Shown here in pieces: positions 3,674-53,861 of a stretch of DNA of 53,893 nucleotides. The stretch is from positions 1 through 53,893 of the forward strand of contig CALVRV010000007.1 in NCBI GenBank assembly GCA_944358865.1, in the 5' to 3' direction. Each line of letters begins with the position of its first letter. The first letter of the stretch is position 1. Below the pieces are notes generated by a model. It was not told where the DNA came from and did not search any database. It worked only from the letters and a program-made list of their open reading frames with translations. Both the position numbers and the translations under genes were made by a program. The stretch is from an uncultured Bacilli bacterium. GTDB taxonomy: Bacteria > Bacillota_I > Bacilli_A > RFN20 > CAG-826.

Positions 3674-3818
3674 GTATTTATTATAAAACAAGTTTTAAAA
3701 AGTAAATAGCAAATTTCTTCTTAAGGGATTACACTTAAATTGATTCTCAAATAATAATTTATATTTCTTAGTATGAACATATTTGTTAATATATACTATC
3801 CTAAAGGAGAAGATAGAA

Positions 3819-6170
3819 ATGAAAAAGAAACAAATTTATCCAATATTAGCCCTTGTTATGTTATCAGTGGTTTCATTAACTAGTTGTAATTTTATCACTA
3901 ATAGTTCTTCTAGTAATGATTTAGTTAGTTCATCTACTACCTCAACCACTAGTGATACTAGTTCTAATTTTTCTACAACTAGTAGTTCATCTACTACTAC
4001 AACAACAACGACAACAACTACAACAATAACAACTTCAAACCCAACCCCTCCTAAAGAATTAGTCAGTGTCTCTTTAACTTTAAATAATGATAATTATTAT
4101 GTTGGTCAATCTTATAATGGTATGTTAGATATAACTATTTTTGCTAATTATAGTGATAATAGTAGTGTAGATATTACTCAAGATATTAATAATTTAGAAA
4201 CTTATGTAGTAGATACAAGTGATTCACATCAAATTTCTGGAATGTCAATTCTACATTCTTCTGGCTATTATAATGGTTTTATTTCTTTTTCATATTTAAA
4301 TGAAAATTATGATTTTAATGAAACATTCTTTCTTCAATCCTTATTAGACAATGAAAATAAAACTATAACTAGTATTGAAATTCTTAATTATGATAGTAAT
4401 CCTAGTATAGGAAGTGTGTATAACAAAGAAAGCTTAGATTTAAAAATTGTTTTTGATAATGATACTGAAGGATATGAATTAATTAAATACAACGATAATT
4501 TATCTTCTCGATTAAATTTAATATTAAATTTAGGTAATGGCGATATTAATTTAATTGATAATCCTTTAAATGCATCATCAGATACATATTATTTATATGT
4601 TGAAGATAGCATTACTAAAATTAAAAGTACCACTGTTACATTTACAATTAGTGGCGGTGGATTTGTTAAATTAGAAAATGTCAGTATTGTCGCTAGTGAT
4701 GTTGATAGCGGATACGCTCCTAGTTTGGGAGACGTAAAAATTTTAGTTATTCCTATTCATTTAAATCGTGGGAATAGCTCAATAACTGCTTTAAGTTTTA
4801 ATAATAGTGATCTAACTAGATTAAATAAATTATATTTTGGTTCAAATCTTGATGCACAAGATGAAGACTGGCCCTTTTCCTTTAAAGATTATTATGAAAC
4901 TGCTTCCTTTGATCAAATGAGTATTTCTGGTATGGTTAGTGAAGTATATTATGAGGAACAATATACGATTTATAGTGTTAATAACGATCAAAGCATGGAG
5001 TCATTATATAATGTGTTTTCTAATGCTTTAGATTTTGTCTATCAAAGTCATAGCGATATCGACTGGTCTAGTTATGACATTAACAATGATGGCTATATTG
5101 ATAACGTTCATTTTATTAATAATGCAGGAAATGGAGTTGAGTGGTCGGATGTTTTATGGCCTCATATGTCACAAGCAAATATTCAACCAACTAATAATAG
5201 ATTAGGAATAAATGTTTATAGCATGTCACAATTAACATCTTTTGATGATGGAATTTCTACTGCAGTGCACGAACAAGGTCATATTTTTGGTCTAATGGAT
5301 TATTATGATTACACGAGTTCTAGTGAAGGTGGATTTGTTGACTATATTGGTTATGCTGATATGCAATCTGGCAATGCCTTTGATTGGAATTCTTATTCTA
5401 AACTAAGTATGGGATGGATTGAGCCATATGTTATTGATGGCACAAAAGATAGTGTTACTATTACTTTACAAGCCGCATCTTTAAATGGTGATTGTTTAAT
5501 TATACCCGCTAATTATGGGACTTTTAATGGCTCGGCTTTTGATGAATATTTTCTTATTGAATTATTTTCACCTTATAACAACAATGAATTTGATTGGTAT
5601 ATGTGGGATAATCAACTAGGCTCATCATATAGTAGTGTTGATTCTTCTTTTTCTGGTTTAGGTGATTATGGAGTAAGAATGTATCATGTAAATTCTACTT
5701 TATATGAATTTACTAACGCTCAATTTATGTCAGATTGGTATAGTTACTATATGTATTTTGATGAGAAAATAAAAATTAATACCAAAGAAGAATTATTGCA
5801 AGCCTATAATTCATCAACAAGTTATGCTGGTTTATTTATTACAAATTCTTCTAATTCTAGTGATTATCTTGGATTTAATGTTGATGATCCAATTATTGAA
5901 GATAGTAAATTATTAACTATTATTCAGGCTAAAAATGAAAATACTTTTGCAAGCGAAACATCATATTATTATGACGATCATGTTTTAGATAGTGAGGACA
6001 TGTTTCAAGAGGGAGACGTCTTTACTTTTGATGAGTATTCTCACTTTTTAAGTAAAGGTGATAGACACAATATAACCACTATGGATAACGGTGAAATATT
6101 CCCATATGAAATAATTTTTGATAAAATGAGTAAGGAAAGTGTTACCATTACAATTAATAAAGTTATTTAA
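3819..6170 (+). CDS. M6-family metalloprotease lipoprotein
   Basis: Secreted, membrane-anchored zinc protease of the immune inhibitor A (M6) type. Of 783 residues, the first 23 form a lipoprotein signal with lipobox LTSC. A Ser/Thr linker with a run of about eleven Thr codons (ACN repeats near 3992-4035) follows, then two Ig-like beta regions (about 70-290) and the catalytic domain. The zinc site HEQGHIFGLMD (HExxHxxGxxD, first His about 484) is complete. An EF-hand-like stretch DINNDGYID lies about 60 residues before it. The start was moved to the ATG at 3819 because AGGAG (3805-3809) sits just upstream; an upstream TTG at 3783 has no such site. The zinc-ribbon gene follows after 14 nt. Substrates are unknown. 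Confidence 0.88.
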   Translation: MKKKQIYPILALVMLSVVSLTSCNFITNSSSSNDLVSSSTTSTTSDTSSNFSTTSSSSTTTTTTTTTTTITTSNPTPPKELVSVSLTLNNDNYYVGQSYNGMLDITIFANYSDNSSVDITQDINNLETYVVDTSDSHQISGMSILHSSGYYNGFISFSYLNENYDFNETFFLQSLLDNENKTITSIEILNYDSNPSIGSVYNKESLDLKIVFDNDTEGYELIKYNDNLSSRLNLILNLGNGDINLIDNPLNASSDTYYLYVEDSITKIKSTTVTFTISGGGFVKLENVSIVASDVDSGYAPSLGDVKILVIPIHLNRGNSSITALSFNNSDLTRLNKLYFGSNLDAQDEDWPFSFKDYYETASFDQMSISGMVSEVYYEEQYTIYSVNNDQSMESLYNVFSNALDFVYQSHSDIDWSSYDINNDGYIDNVHFINNAGNGVEWSDVLWPHMSQANIQPTNNRLGINVYSMSQLTSFDDGISTAVHEQGHIFGLMDYYDYTSSSEGGFVDYIGYADMQSGNAFDWNSYSKLSMGWIEPYVIDGTKDSVTITLQAASLNGDCLIIPANYGTFNGSAFDEYFLIELFSPYNNNEFDWYMWDNQLGSSYSSVDSSFSGLGDYGVRMYHVNSTLYEFTNAQFMSDWYSYYMYFDEKIKINTKEELLQAYNSSTSYAGLFITNSSNSSDYLGFNVDDPIIEDSKLLTIIQAKNENTFASETSYYYDDHVLDSEDMFQEGDVFTFDEYSHFLSKGDRHNITTMDNGEIFPYEIIFDKMSKESVTITINKVI

Positions 6171-6959: not shown

Positions 6960-9900
6960 ATGAATAGAAAATTTATTGTGGCTATGATCGCCTCGTTAAT
7001 GGTTATAATTTTAAGCAGTTGTCAACTTGATAATATTTTTAAATCGTCTTCATCTAGCAATATACCTTCATCGAGTTCTAGTATTTTTGATACAAGTTCT
7101 ACAACTAGTAGCGATTCATCTACTTCTAATAGCAGCACCACAACAAGTGAGCCACCAGTAGAACACGTTATTAAGATAACTCATAACAACCAATCTAATA
7201 GTTTGTATGTTGATGAAACATTACAGCTTTCCTTATTAGTGGATAATTTGCCATATGATGGTAATGATATGTATTGGTCTAGTAGTGATAATTCAATAGC
7301 TATAATTGATTCGACTGGTTTAGTAAGAGCTATAAAAGAAGGAAATGTTAACATAAGTGTTTCTTTATTTATCGACGAAAAATTATATGATGATAGCATC
7401 TCTTTAGAGATATTACATATACCTGTTTTGCCTACCTCTATTAGTTTAGACGTAGAATCAATTACTTTAAATATTGATGATACTTATCAACTAACACCGA
7501 CAATTTATCCAGAAAACGCTGATAATAAATCTATTACTTATATAAGTAATGATACTGATATTGCTACTATTTCTAATGATGGTTTAATAACTGCTTTAAA
7601 AGGAGGAAAAACAAGCATAACAGCCACTACAATTAATGGCTTAACTGCTCAAGTTGAATTAGTTGTACATACTCCCGTTGTTTCTTTTGTTAATATTGAT
7701 AGTGTAACATTAGATGTTGGTGATATAAAAACAATAACCGCAAACATTAGGAATTATGATAATGGCACATTAACTTATTCAAGCAGCAATAGTGAAATTG
7801 TTAGTGTTGATAGCCAAACTGGTCAAATAAAAGCTTTAAAACATGGAACCGCGACTATTAGCGCATCAATAACACTTAATTCTTTTACTTATAGTGATGA
7901 GTATGATGCTATTGTTAGAGACCCCAGCGAATATACCAGTGGTTTACAATTTACTATTTCAAGTGACGGGACATATTATAGTGTTACCGGTTATAATGGA
8001 GCAAATCATAACGTAACTATTCCTTCTATATATAATAATTTGTCAGTTGAAGAAATTGCTGATAAAGCTTTTTATAATAACGACACAATAAAAATTGTTA
8101 ACATTCCATATAGTATAAAAACAATTGGAGTTCAGGCTTTTGGTGGAGGCTGTGATTATTTAGAAATTATAAACATCCCCTATAATAGTCAACTAACAAC
8201 CATAAAAAAACAAGCATTTGAATTTTGTGACACACTACGCTCAATTAGAATTCCTAAAACTGTTTCAACTATAGAATTAAATGCATTCGGCAATTGCTTT
8301 TATGGTAAATTCACTATATATTGTGAAACAACTAGTAAACCTAGTGGTTGGGACGATTATTGGATGGGATATCCAAACATTTATGATTTGCCTATTATTT
8401 ATTGGAATGCTAGTGGAATAGACAGAGATAACTTTGTTTATTTATATTCTTATGATAATTTAAGTAAAGAATATTATATAGAAATCACAGATTATATTAA
8501 TGAATCTAATGTTGATTCGATTACAATTCCTCATACAATAAATAATTTTGTTGTTAAAAGTATTGGCTCGAGAGCTTTTGAAGATTGCAATAACATTAAC
8601 TTTATTTTGTTTGAAGAAAATTGTGAAATTAATAATATTGGCGATTACGCATTTTTGGATTGCTATTTGTATTACATCATCATACCATCTAGTGTTCAAA
8701 TTATAGGTGAAGGAGCTTTTGAAAATAGTTCTAGAGTTATATATTGTGAAGACTCTTCAATCCAAACTGGATGGCATGAAAATTGGAATTCTTCAAATAT
8801 TTTAACTATTTTTAATTGTCATGATTTTGGAATATATAATGAAGAAAATTATTATTTTAATTATCTAATTGTAAATGATGATGTTGATGCTTACGCTGCT
8901 ATTATTTCGTTTGGTTTAAATTCTCGGACAAGCCTTGACGTTATTATTCCTAGCGCTATAAATATTGACGGGGGTGATATTCCAGTTAAATTAATTAATG
9001 AATATCTTTTTTATGACTTTCCAGAATATATACAATCAGTTTTTATTCCCTCTAGCGTTGGAATTATTACTGGAAGGATATTTTCTTCACAATCTTTTAG
9101 CAAAATTTATTGTGAAATTTTAAGTGAAGCTGAAGGTTGGGATGATGAGTGGAATTATTATGATAATCCTGTTGTTTGGGGATATACAGGTATTAGCAGT
9201 TCAACTGATGAAAACCATAGTAACAATTACAATTTAGAATATAGCGTTTCTAAAGATTTTGATGGCAGTAAATATATAACTATTACAAAATGTAATGTCG
9301 ATGAAGGCTATTATGTTTATGTAGATATCCCAGAATTATTCAATATAGACGGAGTGGATATTCCTGTTAAAATCATTGCTGAAAATTCTTTTTCAAACAC
9401 AGATCAAATAAGAGGAGTTAATATACCTAGCAGTGTTACTATAATTAAAACTGAAGCTTTTCGAAACTGCAATTATATAAACTTTAAAATAGATTTTGCT
9501 GAAAATAGCAAATTAGAAATAATTGAAGATTATGCATTTGCTGGATGCAATTTAGAAAATACTTTTAACATTCCTAGCAGTGTAAAAAGTATAGGAAATT
9601 ATGCATTTGCTGGATGCAATTTAGAAAATACTTTTAACATTCCTAGCAGTGTAAAAAGTATAGGAAATTATGCTTTTGAAGATTGCGATTTTGAAAATAT
9701 ATCGTTTGGTGAAAATAGCAAGCTAGAAACATTAGGAATAAACGCTTTTACTGACTGCAACAGTTTAACTAATGTTGAAATTCCGAAAGGTGTAAAAACA
9801 ATTAATGCTTTTAATAGTTGTGATAATTTAGAAACTGTAACATTTGAAGAAGGAAGCCAACTTGAATCAATAGCGGGCTTTATGAATTGCTTAAATCTTA

Positions 9901-46597: not shown

Positions 46598-47068
46598 GTG
46601 ACATTAAAAGAATTAAGAAAATTTCATAATATGACACAAATTGAATGTGCAAAATATTTAGGAATTCCGCTGCGTACATATCAAAATTATGAGCGTGACG
46701 ATGTAAATACTAATACAATTAAATATCAATTCATGCTGTCAAAATTAGAGCAATATGGTTTTGTTGATGAAACGCATGGGATATTGACTATAGAACGAAT
46801 TAAAACAATATGTACACCTATATTAAAAGAATATAACGTTTCTTATTGCTATTTATTTGGCTCATACGCTAAAGGCAAAGCAACTGAGATAAGCGATGTT
46901 GATTTGCTTGTTTATACAGAAATTAAAGGTTTAAAATTTTATGAATTGATAGAAGTTCTTAGGGAAAGTCTTAAAAAGAAAGTGGATTTACTAAATCAAG
47001 ACCAAATAAAAAACAATTTTGTTCTTTTAAATGAAATATTAAAGGATGGAATAAAAATATATGGATAA
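46598..47068 (+). CDS. mntA: HTH-MNT antitoxin (MntA-like nucleotidyltransferase)
   Basis: 156 residues from a GTG start with GAGGT upstream. The N-terminal ~55 residues are an XRE-type helix-turn-helix (MTQIECAKYLGIPLRTYQNYE). The rest is a minimal nucleotidyltransferase with the GS-x10-DxD motif (Gly88-Ser89, Asp100, Asp102). MNT antitoxins of this class inactivate the partner HEPN RNase by AMPylating a tyrosine. Fusion to a DNA-binding domain suggests direct autoregulation through the upstream palindromes. Its last 8 nt overlap hepT. Confidence 0.88.
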   Translation: MTLKELRKFHNMTQIECAKYLGIPLRTYQNYERDDVNTNTIKYQFMLSKLEQYGFVDETHGILTIERIKTICTPILKEYNVSYCYLFGSYAKGKATEISDVDLLVYTEIKGLKFYELIEVLRESLKKKVDLLNQDQIKNNFVLLNEILKDGIKIYG

Positions 47069-47402
47069 TTTTAAAAATGATAACTATTATTTAAAAAAGA
47101 TTGTAAATGATATTGACTTTATTATCGAACATACTAAAGATATCAACACACGTGCAGAACTAGAAAAAGATGAAATATTACTGGATTCGGTTTTATTTCG
47201 TTTAATTCAAATTTCTGAGAATTTGGTTAAATTAACAGAAGATTTCAAAATTAAACACAAAGAAGTACCTTGGCGTGCTATTAAAGGCATGCGTAATCGT
47301 GTAATACACGATTATGGTGAGGTAGATATTGAAATTGTTTATGATACAGTAAAAGTAAACCTGCCTGAACTTGTTGATATATTAAAAAAATTTTGTCAAT
47401 AG
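47061..47402 (+). CDS. hepT: HEPN RNase toxin HepT
   Basis: 113-residue all-helical HEPN protein. The RNase motif R-x4-H-x-Y is complete (Arg78, His83, Tyr85 in RNRVIHDY), Tyr85 being the expected site of AMPylation by MntA. It presumably cleaves tRNA or mRNA when unmodified. Overlaps mntA by 8 nt, so toxin and antitoxin are translationally coupled. Confidence 0.9.
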   Translation: MDNFKNDNYYLKKIVNDIDFIIEHTKDINTRAELEKDEILLDSVLFRLIQISENLVKLTEDFKIKHKEVPWRAIKGMRNRVIHDYGEVDIEIVYDTVKVNLPELVDILKKFCQ

Positions 47403-50011: not shown

Positions 50012-50172
50012 AAAATTGATGTAGTTACTACAATATATTAAACTTTGTTCTCCTTTTAAATTTAGTTTAAGAATTAACAATATTTTTTTCTATTTTTTAT
50101 AATGTTGCAATATTTTTAATATAATACTAAAATATAGCCAAACAAAAATTGTTTTGTTGTTGTTAAAAAATA
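50012..50172 (+). promoter_or_regulatory. Upstream region of the G-tract surface operon
   Basis: A TATAAT-like box lies near 50118-50123 and another near 50096-50101, so a leader of about 45-70 nt is possible. A small AACAAAA/TTTTGTT hairpin (about 50143-50160) occurs before the start. No ribosome site is visible before ATG 50173. Confidence 0.3.
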
Positions 50173-50838
50173 ATGGAATCAATAAAATTTAAAAACATAT
50201 TAAGAAAGTTGAATAAAATAACCTTCAATCCATTCGGGGGGGGGGTCTTATTTTTAATATGTTTATGTCTTACTAATGGTGGATTTGCTAGTTGGATTAT
50301 TGGTGGGGGCGGAAGCCTGTTACAATCGGTAAACGGGCAAATAAATATAGGGAATGTTTATACCTTTATCAGTTTAAATAAAACAGAATACGAAAATGGA
50401 TATAAATGTTTTACTGTGTGTCAAGATGGGCTTATTAACGAACCAGGTATTGTATCAAATTATGGTGAAGTAATCTATTACCTTAGTGTGGATTCTAATG
50501 CTGCCTCTAGTTTTATTACAAATAATTCAATATCGGTAATATTTACTTTATCAAATAATTCTGGATATTTTATCAATTCAAATAAAAAACTTTTCGATAT
50601 TAGTTATGGGATTAATTATCCATCAACGTATATTCCAGTTGAAGATTCTAATTATCTTACTTATTGTTCAATTGTTACAAATCAAGTGGTTCTTAACATT
50701 CAGCAAAGTTTAACTTTTTCCATTCATTTTAAATTTAATTATATAGGAACTGACTTTAAAACCTTTTTTAATACTTTGCCAGGAGAAGGAGCAGTGACAC
50801 CTAATTTCTCTCTTTTAATTGAAGGAGTTAGAAATTGA
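50173..50838 (+). CDS. Exported protein with a G10 tract in its signal sequence
   Basis: 221 residues. A basic N-terminus (FKNILRKLNKI) and a hydrophobic segment (about 23-46) ending GGFASWII form a signal or anchor. The rest is beta-rich, Asn/Ser/Tyr-rich, with no recognised domain. Codons 22-25 are encoded by ten consecutive G bases (50236-50245), in frame here. The N-terminus resembles that of the next protein (LRKL, hydrophobic stretch, GFAS-aromatic-I). Its TGA stop overlaps the next ATG (TGATG). The short signal recalls SipW-type exported fibre proteins, but that is only a suggestion. Role unknown. Confidence 0.75.
   Translation: MESIKFKNILRKLNKITFNPFGGGVLFLICLCLTNGGFASWIIGGGGSLLQSVNGQINIGNVYTFISLNKTEYENGYKCFTVCQDGLINEPGIVSNYGEVIYYLSVDSNAASSFITNNSISVIFTLSNNSGYFINSNKKLFDISYGINYPSTYIPVEDSNYLTYCSIVTNQVVLNIQQSLTFSIHFKFNYIGTDFKTFFNTLPGEGAVTPNFSLLIEGVRN
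50236..50245 (+). repeat. Homopolymeric G10 tract
   Basis: Ten consecutive G bases in a very AT-rich genome, inside the coding sequence of the exported protein. Nine G would give the stop TAA four codons later; eleven G would give a TAA after about ten codons. A candidate contingency locus. Confidence 0.9.
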
Positions 50839-53789
50839 TGTTGCGCAAATTAAAGTCTTTTTTCCTTCCTCTTTTAACTACAATGCTAGTTTTAAGTGGC
50901 TTTGCCTCTTTTATATTTACTATTTATGACACTAACGATAATATAAATGAAAATGCAGTTGTTGAGATTGATAGAGAATCAAGATATGTTGCTTACATTG
51001 AAAACGATGGAAACAACACTAAATACACTAGCATAGAAAAAGCTTTAGATGATGCAGCTCAAAAAGGTGGAGAACAAACTGTTTTTGTTATTCCTGGAAT
51101 AAGTTCTCCTTCTAACCCTATTAAAATAACGAGAGAGTGTACAATATCTTCTGGTGTAACACTTGCAATGCCTTACGAGTTTGATGATGATAACAAACCT
51201 ATTTATGAACCAGATAAGTATGGACCTAGTATTTTTGGACATAATCCATTTAATAAAATAGATGGCTTTAGTGACGATAATGAAACTTATATTAAGACTT
51301 ATGTTTTAGTAAAAGGAGGCGTTGAACTTAATATATCTGATGGTGGCACTTTAAAAATGGGTGGTTTTAGAAGGAGTACTGCTCCACAAGGATCAACTGG
51401 TGGAAATCATGTTCAACTTGTCTTAGAAGAATATTCTATGATTAATTGTTATGGAACTATCGATTGTGATGGCTATATAAAAGAATCGTTTGATAATAAT
51501 AGTAGTCAAATCAACATTTTTAGCAGTGGAAAACTCATGGAACCACTTGTTATCTATGATTGGTCTAGTGCTAGTAATACCCAAACATATTTAAGTAATG
51601 GGATTTTTCCGTTTAATTTATTTGAATTGCCACAAGTATCTGTAAAAATTAGAATATATTCCGGTGGTGTTTTAAATGCAAAGGCCTGGATTACTGGAAC
51701 TAGAGTCGGCGATGTTACTAGTACTGCTAATCTAATTGGTGGAACTGATGACGGAATATCTCTATTGATATCAAATAAAAACGGAGATTTAAATGATTAT
51801 ATAGATTGGAAGAGCACAGATAAATCTATTGGAAACTCAATTATATACAATTCAGGAGACAAAAATAATACATTAGGAAATCATAAAACAAATATTGATG
51901 TTTGTGGCGAATATAAGTTTGAAAGCATGACATTAGATGTGCAATCAGGATTTGGATCTGTACCGATTGATTCTTCAGAATATTTTCTTCCGTTTTCCTC
52001 CATTTTTGATATAAACATTATAAGTGGTGTGTTTAACATAAATAATAGAATTAAGTTTTTACCAGGTTCAGAAATTACTATTGGCAAAAACGCTATTGCC
52101 AATGCTAAGGCTGGTATAGCCGTTTTTAATAGTCATAAAAATTCTAGTGGACAAGCAATCGCTAGTTATTTGACTAACCAACAAGCAGCTTATTTTGAAA
52201 ATAATGGAACATTTTATCTTGAGTCTGGTTCTTTCTTTGGAAAAATACATGCTTCTTTAGAAAACGGAGATGAAAATTCGAAAATAATTGTTGGAGATGT
52301 CCAATGTTATGCAACAACAAAAGAACTTACTAATAATGATTTTACAGATTCTTTAAAAGCAGATATAAAATTTGCTCAAGATACTTCTTTAATTTCTGAC
52401 TATGATTTATTGCCTAATACTACATATATGTGGGAAGAAGATGAACAATCAAATAAAGCATTTTGGTATATTCCTGGATACGTACTTAATTTTAATATTT
52501 TATCTAGCAGTGGTGGAAACATAAATGACGATTTCAGTTTCGATGTTAGACTAAATAACAATGATAATGAAATTTATAGTTTCAATAATAATAGTCAACT
52601 CTACTTGAGGGTTGAACCTGGAACTACTTTTGAGATTATTAATCCTGTCAACATATCATCCTTTAAATTTGAAGATGAAAGCGATGTAATGTTCAATACT
52701 GTATATACTGCTAATTCAAGCATTAATTTTAATATTAAGCCAAACGAAATTAACGCTGTTGATAAAATAGCCCGTGTTAGTATTTATAATGTGACAGACA
52801 ATTCAGAAAAAGATTCATACTCATATGATAGCGAGACAAAATTAACATTAAAAGCAAAATTCTATGATAGTTCTAATAATGAAATTACTGATGTTTCCGG
52901 TCTAGATATAGAATATAAATGGAGTGTAGATGGTGTAGATCAAAGTAATAATACTGATAATTTTGAATATACATTTAAACAAGAAGAAAATGAAAAGATT
53001 TATAATGTGGCACTATCAGTAAGTTTAAAAGTAAATAATGAAATCGTTTTTGAAGAAAACACCTCTATTAAAATAACAATCAATGTAGACCCTGGGTGCT
53101 TTAGTTCTGGAACTCTTATTACAACTAATAATGGTGAAAAGAAAGTTGAAGATTTAACTAGAGATGACCTAATTTTAACATTCAACCATTATTCTGGTGA
53201 ATATGAATATAAGCCTATTTTAATGCTAATTAACCATGGTGATAGATATCATGATGTTATTGAATTAAACTTTAATGACAATACAAATTTTGAGGTTATC
53301 AATCATCATAGTTTATTTGACATAAGTGAAAATAAGTATGTCGTAATTAATGAAACTAATTATACCAATTATATCGGACATCGTTTTTTAAAATATGAAA
53401 ATGGTTTGAAAAAAATTGTTACTTTAACTAGCGTTAATATTACAACAAAATATACCGGATCTTATACATTGATTACTGATGGAAATTATAATTGTTTAGC
53501 TAATAATTTATTAAATATAACTCCTTCAATTAAAGGTTTCTACAATATCTTTGATTATGATGAAAATCATGTATATAAGGCTTCAAAGGTAGAGCAAGCT
53601 ATTGAAGAATATGGTTTATATTCATATGATTATTGGCAAGATTACATTGATTATGATGTTTTTATTGGATTTAATGTTCCTTATCTTAAGATTTCAGTAG
53701 GCAAGGGTTTAGTTAATGAAGAGTATTTGTTCTATTTAATTAGATGGTATTATTCAATGATTGAATCAGGTGAAGCTATTATTTATTAA
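50838..53789 (+). CDS. Large surface protein with C-terminal Hint (Hedgehog/intein) domain
   Basis: 983 residues. Signal/anchor sequence about 1-30 (LRKLKSFFLP...GFASFIF). A beta-helix-like region rich in Gly/Asn/Ser follows (about 60-540), beginning with a SIEKALDDAAQKG segment typical of parallel beta-helix proteins, then Ig-like regions (about 540-750). At Cys754 a Hint domain begins: CFSSGTLITTNNGEKKVEDL, with block B His823-His824 (EVINHHSLFD) and a closing block to about Asn890 (ITDGNYNCLANNLL). A 93-residue tail of no known family follows. Hint domains cleave the chain at the Cys by N-S acyl shift. ATG 50838 has GGAG 11 nt upstream and overlaps the previous stop (TGATG). Confidence 0.8.
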   Translation: MLRKLKSFFLPLLTTMLVLSGFASFIFTIYDTNDNINENAVVEIDRESRYVAYIENDGNNTKYTSIEKALDDAAQKGGEQTVFVIPGISSPSNPIKITRECTISSGVTLAMPYEFDDDNKPIYEPDKYGPSIFGHNPFNKIDGFSDDNETYIKTYVLVKGGVELNISDGGTLKMGGFRRSTAPQGSTGGNHVQLVLEEYSMINCYGTIDCDGYIKESFDNNSSQINIFSSGKLMEPLVIYDWSSASNTQTYLSNGIFPFNLFELPQVSVKIRIYSGGVLNAKAWITGTRVGDVTSTANLIGGTDDGISLLISNKNGDLNDYIDWKSTDKSIGNSIIYNSGDKNNTLGNHKTNIDVCGEYKFESMTLDVQSGFGSVPIDSSEYFLPFSSIFDINIISGVFNINNRIKFLPGSEITIGKNAIANAKAGIAVFNSHKNSSGQAIASYLTNQQAAYFENNGTFYLESGSFFGKIHASLENGDENSKIIVGDVQCYATTKELTNNDFTDSLKADIKFAQDTSLISDYDLLPNTTYMWEEDEQSNKAFWYIPGYVLNFNILSSSGGNINDDFSFDVRLNNNDNEIYSFNNNSQLYLRVEPGTTFEIINPVNISSFKFEDESDVMFNTVYTANSSINFNIKPNEINAVDKIARVSIYNVTDNSEKDSYSYDSETKLTLKAKFYDSSNNEITDVSGLDIEYKWSVDGVDQSNNTDNFEYTFKQEENEKIYNVALSVSLKVNNEIVFEENTSIKITINVDPGCFSSGTLITTNNGEKKVEDLTRDDLILTFNHYSGEYEYKPILMLINHGDRYHDVIELNFNDNTNFEVINHHSLFDISENKYVVINETNYTNYIGHRFLKYENGLKKIVTLTSVNITTKYTGSYTLITDGNYNCLANNLLNITPSIKGFYNIFDYDENHVYKASKVEQAIEEYGLYSYDYWQDYIDYDVFIGFNVPYLKISVGKGLVNEEYLFYLIRWYYSMIESGEAIIY

Positions 53790-53861
53790 CAAAAAATAAA
53801 AATAACGTGAATTCTTAAACTAAATTCCGTTTCCTGTAGGTAAAATAAATAACGAATTTAA

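Follow-up and report, generated by a model that had tools for sequence, protein, structure and literature searches.

A G10 tract in an exported-protein gene as a candidate slipped-strand switch in a lineage of uncultured Bacilli

The stretch of DNA analysed here (53,893 nucleotides from an uncultured Bacilli bacterium, referred to as the window) contains a run of ten consecutive Gs within the signal-peptide region of a predicted exported protein, ORF1, and this tract is very probably a slipped-strand phase-variation switch. The first-pass annotation had read the tract in this way, and that reading gains support from a second G10 in a diverged paralogue, from ON and OFF states among homologues, from length differences between orthologues, from tracts in promoter spacers across the family and from the missing mutS1 and mutL. 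Switching at the tract is inferred from sequence, as are its slippage rate, the mixed populations it would generate and any adaptive role. The features concerned are as follows.

50079 to 50172, plus strand: upstream region of the operon, a putative promoter region placed by position only
50173 to 50838, plus strand: ORF1, exported protein of 221 aa whose family was not recognised, with a basic n-region, the tract, the core VLFLICLCL and the motif TNGGFASW
50236 to 50245, plus strand: G10 tract, candidate slipped-strand switch in codons 22-25 of ORF1, assembled in the ON state
50838 to 53789, plus strand: ORF2, large exported protein with a C-terminal Hint-like domain

The ten Gs at 50236-50245 are present as annotated and occupy codons 22-24 and the first base of codon 25 of ORF1 (221 aa, ATG at 50173), which agrees with the earlier assignment of the tract to residues 22-25 of an exported protein, export being assigned by hydropathy. 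Computation of the register products gave full-length ORF1 at G7, G10 and G13, whereas in the other registers a stop follows within about ten codons past the tract, yielding 33 aa at G8, 27 aa at G9, 34 aa at G11 and 28 aa at G12; the early stops first traced for G9 and G11 and the claim that one register in three is productive are thus borne out across G7-G13. A change in tract length is therefore predicted to alter the frame of ORF1, as slipped-strand switching requires. The tract is also, as had been claimed, the only one of its kind in the window, being the sole run of at least six Gs, but the statement that no G run longer than four occurs elsewhere was incorrect: G5 runs lie at 8970, 44582 and 50305, the last 60 bp downstream of the tract and in the same gene. 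As just 5.2% of the window's glycine codons are GGG, three GGG codons in succession are unlikely to arise by codon choice alone and the repeat appears to be favoured as DNA, beyond merely coding for glycines.

Across the genome (1.19 Mb in 39 contigs) there are five isolated G6 runs, no runs of G7-G9 and two G10 runs, the second at C20:22770-22779. Since about 0.03 runs of at least ten Gs per genome are expected from the conditional G frequencies of the window, the probability of observing two is approximately 4e-4, and the tract is longer than genome composition predicts, as expected of a slipped-strand locus. The C20 gene is a paralogue of ORF1 with 30% protein identity that carries its tract at the homologous codon (FNPFGGG in ORF1, FNPLGGG in the paralogue); both genes use GGG GGG GGG G, and the C20 gene is followed by a homologue of ORF2 (E=7e-60). 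A third, more distant ORF1/ORF2 pair is found in the same genome on the minus strand (G000:C10:4837-5385 and 3755-4687), on a contig with no G run above six. An AbiEi/AbiEii-like pair adjoins the C20 operon (L005 3072-4665) and a nucleotidyltransferase/HEPN-like pair with a helix-turn-helix lies at 46598-47402 of the window, each of which is, by eye only, a probable toxin-antitoxin module.

The ORF1 signal peptide was judged by hydropathy, not by a signal-peptide predictor: basic residues precede the tract and VLFLICLCL, the hydrophobic peak, follows it. ORF1 is a putative surface protein. Comparison of ORF1 with Pfam and NCBIfam models, including those of TasA/SipW-dependent exported proteins, gave no match; its GGFAS(F/W) motif presumably resembles that of these proteins and is a lead only. 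A single-sequence structure model had a pLDDT of 32, too low for use. ORF1 and ORF2 form a conserved gene pair, with homologues of ORF1 in 21 and of ORF2 in 19 of the 126 family genomes. The ORF2 start overlaps the ORF1 stop (TGATG), and an OFF state of ORF1 may also reduce ORF2; co-switching is nevertheless uncertain because ORF2, though starting within the ORF1 stop, carries its own AGGAG. The Hint/intein-like domain at the C-terminus of ORF2 (53097-53789 of the window; Hint_2, E=1.6e-4, below Pfam's cut-off) is absent from the C20 paralogue, and it is possible that ORF2 is a self-cleaving or cross-linking surface protein.

The start region was read in 21 copies of ORF1, with starts assigned by eye and frames taken from the assembled homopolymers. 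Nine copies, in three genera and seven separately assembled genomes, carry G8-G10 at the signal-peptide position; in five the start codon is in frame (ON) and in four it is not (OFF).

ON copies: window G10, C20 G10, G193:C6 G9, G095 G9, G049 G8
OFF copies: G067 G10, G047 G9, G193:C1 G9 (a call that depends on a GTG start, the only start available), G199:C1:391449 G8

In the OFF copies the start and n-region are out of frame with the sequence beyond the tract, where a conserved frame stays open over about 180-205 codons but lacks a start of its own close by. Each of the 12 copies without a tract reads in frame, compared with 5 of the 9 that carry one (Fisher p=0.021, the copies not being fully independent). 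G047 and G067 have orthologous copies (78% across the 516 bp surrounding the tract), the first with G9 and the second with G10. A congener, G004, keeps the three glycines as GGGGGAGGG, which interrupts the tract and would lock the gene ON. Comparison with homologous loci had been proposed at the outset as the means of checking the switch; the lengths in relatives are not uniform (G8, G9 and G10), and differing lengths together with ON and OFF states at a homologous locus are what slipped-strand switching predicts.

The window locus belongs with a set of candidate switches found across the lineage. The LigA of this genome matches genomes of uncultured Bacilli from rumen and gut, the best at 85%; among the named cultured genera listed, the closest reach only about 52% identity. 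G runs of at least nine are present in 58 of 126 family genomes. The 110 such runs collected from the family left 106 usable; C52 runs in L092 and L112 (G086), beside Ns or at a contig end, are likely poly-G sequencing artefacts and were left out of the counts. When flanking hexamers were scored against TTGACA and TATAAT at a spacing of 15-19, promoter-like spacers (score of at least 9/12) held 48 of the 106 tracts (45%) against 7.8% of random placements, and at a score of at least 11 the figures were 15% and 0.1%. L147, for example, reads TTGACA-aaatggtc-G10-TATTAT and its orthologue L149 has G9. Where the genes downstream of spacer tracts could be assigned, by N-terminal sequence, they mainly encode lipoproteins, other exported proteins or membrane acyltransferases. 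Other tracts lie in coding frames: type I specificity genes are interrupted at the tract in L129 and L141, and further examples are an N6/N4 DNA methylase (L136), an MBOAT protein (L071), an FkbH-like protein (L138) and a DUF285 leucine-rich protein (L064). L129, L141 and L136 are thereby candidates for phase-variable DNA modification in uncultured Bacilli. Among cross-species ortholog sets, with one genome per species, tract lengths differ in six of seven, L150/L152 having the same length. Not every run is a switch: L167, by eye, lies in a GGGTGTG motif resembling FtsZ. It is somewhat probable that this family, whose genera mostly lack MutS1, possesses a multi-locus poly-G phasome acting on surface proteins through frame and promoter spacing and on DNA modification through specificity and methylase genes, and is a phase-variable lineage outside the known pathogens.

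Two further observations concern the surroundings of the family tracts. In 73 of 106 tracts (L061-L167) a C directly precedes the G run, against 18% C among the bases there, and this excess is seen in promoter and coding tracts alike. In L090 (G052:C1, 1502-1510) a G9 occupies the extreme 3' end of a gene, and the start codon of the next one, an ORF2 homologue, follows 9 bases later; the tract may influence ribosome binding at that site or translational coupling.

MutS1 and MutL matches above cut-off were absent from all five genomes of the genus, in which only a MutS2-like C-terminal match was found, while 11 of 14 control genomes passed for MutS1 and 11 of 14 for MutL. Mononucleotide switching in meningococcus rises 100- to 1000-fold when mismatch repair is mutated (PMC3639595), and given that MutS1 and MutL are lacking, runs in this genus should be very unstable. 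MutS1 occurs in about 20 of 116 family genomes, and tracts are found in 48 of 96 genomes without it compared with 5 of 20 with it (Fisher p=0.05). A strict link between the loss of mutS and the presence of tracts was rejected, as the correlation is weak and G runs also occur in other families of the order that retain MutS1; the connection of the tracts with missing mismatch repair is suggestive only.

The proposed switch would operate as follows. Replication errors would add or remove a G in the tract; at G7, G10 or G13 the hydrophobic part would be read in the frame set by the start codon and basic n-region, and ORF1 would be made and exported, and in the other two registers translation would stop soon after the tract, leaving a fragment of 27-34 aa. 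Without MutS1 and MutL, slippage would be frequent and reversible and would produce mixed populations, in which selection by host, phage or competitor could shift the balance of ON and OFF. Across the lineage, G-tract switches would act either on reading frames or on promoter spacing.

Given that glycines are common at the tract position in homologues, and that G004 retains three of them with an interrupted repeat, it is possible that the run merely codes for a conserved Gly-Gly-Gly between the n- and h-regions and that the DNA repeat is incidental and stable. However, this is improbable: both paralogues use GGG GGG GGG G despite the rarity of GGG among glycine codons, several ORF1 homologues have no such glycines, and the four homologues that are out of frame at the tract weaken a glycine-only reading. 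The large share of family tracts held by promoter-like spacers raises the possibility that the window tract is likewise the spacer of an internal promoter, which is very unlikely and was rejected, since the window tract scores 7/12 and the C20 tract 8/12, values typical of random placements, and each is embedded in an open frame that is conserved before and after it.

Transcriptional slippage can occur at long homopolymers, and the intact downstream frames of the OFF copies would suit RNA-polymerase slippage or ribosomal frameshifting at the run, giving a blend of products in each cell with no genetic switching. As the sole explanation this is highly unlikely, as it accounts neither for the length differences between orthologues nor for the promoter-spacer tracts nor for the many in-frame copies, although such slippage may coexist with a switch and leak in OFF cells. 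There is, finally, the concern that the source is a metagenome-assembled genome and that evident poly-G junk occurs in some related records (C52 in L092 and L112); an artefact of sequencing or assembly is barely credible here, given that the window tract lies internally between unique flanks and the frame runs open across it, and this reading was rejected because the tract recurs at the homologous site in seven genomes, each assembled separately.

Inverted 22-mers flank the operon at 50057-50078 (plus strand) and 53807-53828 (minus strand), the left copy with two mismatches. There are ten exact copies of GGAATTTANTTTAAGAATTNAC in the genome, nearly all of them no more than about 80 bases from a contig end (control 0), including copies near the ends of G000 contigs C3, C4, C16, C19, C20, C25, C26 and C29, and another genus (L101) has the repeat at 98.7% identity across 75 bp. 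GGAATTTANTTTAAGAATTNAC probably marks the end of a mobile insertion sequence where the assembly is interrupted. The operon was considered as an invertible or mobile cassette and this was rejected, the flanking repeat being multi-copy, mostly at contig ends, and mismatched twice in its left copy.

Multi-switch genomes have been described mostly from pathogens, and no earlier report of such switches in this lineage was found in the open-access literature. The class of mechanism is already known; what is new is its spread through uncultured gut and rumen Bacilli. With tracts of at least nine Gs in 58 of 126 genomes, many at switch-like sites, the matter is testable with existing rumen and gut metagenome reads and is relevant to how commensals might cope with phages, antibodies of the host or competing microbes. 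It also carries a warning, in that OFF copies will be annotated as pseudogenes.

The surface-antigen variation of Mycoplasma and Ureaplasma (PMC2268961, PMC3047005) likewise concerns variable surface proteins in small, AT-rich, Bacilli-related genomes, but uses DNA inversion or recombination in place of a G homopolymer. With the poly-G switch of NgoAV hsdS (PMC9577141) the relatives share, in L129 and L141, a G9/G10 between two specificity domains; these tracts lie outside the window, and a change of specificity is only predicted. Neisseria porA (PMC3639595) has G9-G11 between -35 and -10, an arrangement shared by other tracts of the family, whereas the window tract is coding and its promoter-spacer score, like that of C20, is at control level. 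The closest likeness is to the intragenic poly-G/C contingency genes of Neisseria, Campylobacter and Helicobacter (e.g. lgtG; PMC3639595, PMC8355987, PMC2823697), with which the locus shares a G homopolymer of 8-11 early in the coding region, one productive register in three, surface-related genes and many loci per lineage. In contrast to those genes, the host is an uncultured Bacilli bacterium and not a host-restricted proteobacterial species, the gene family is new and switching is predicted from the DNA sequence; at that level, the window locus has the features of an intragenic poly-G contingency gene.
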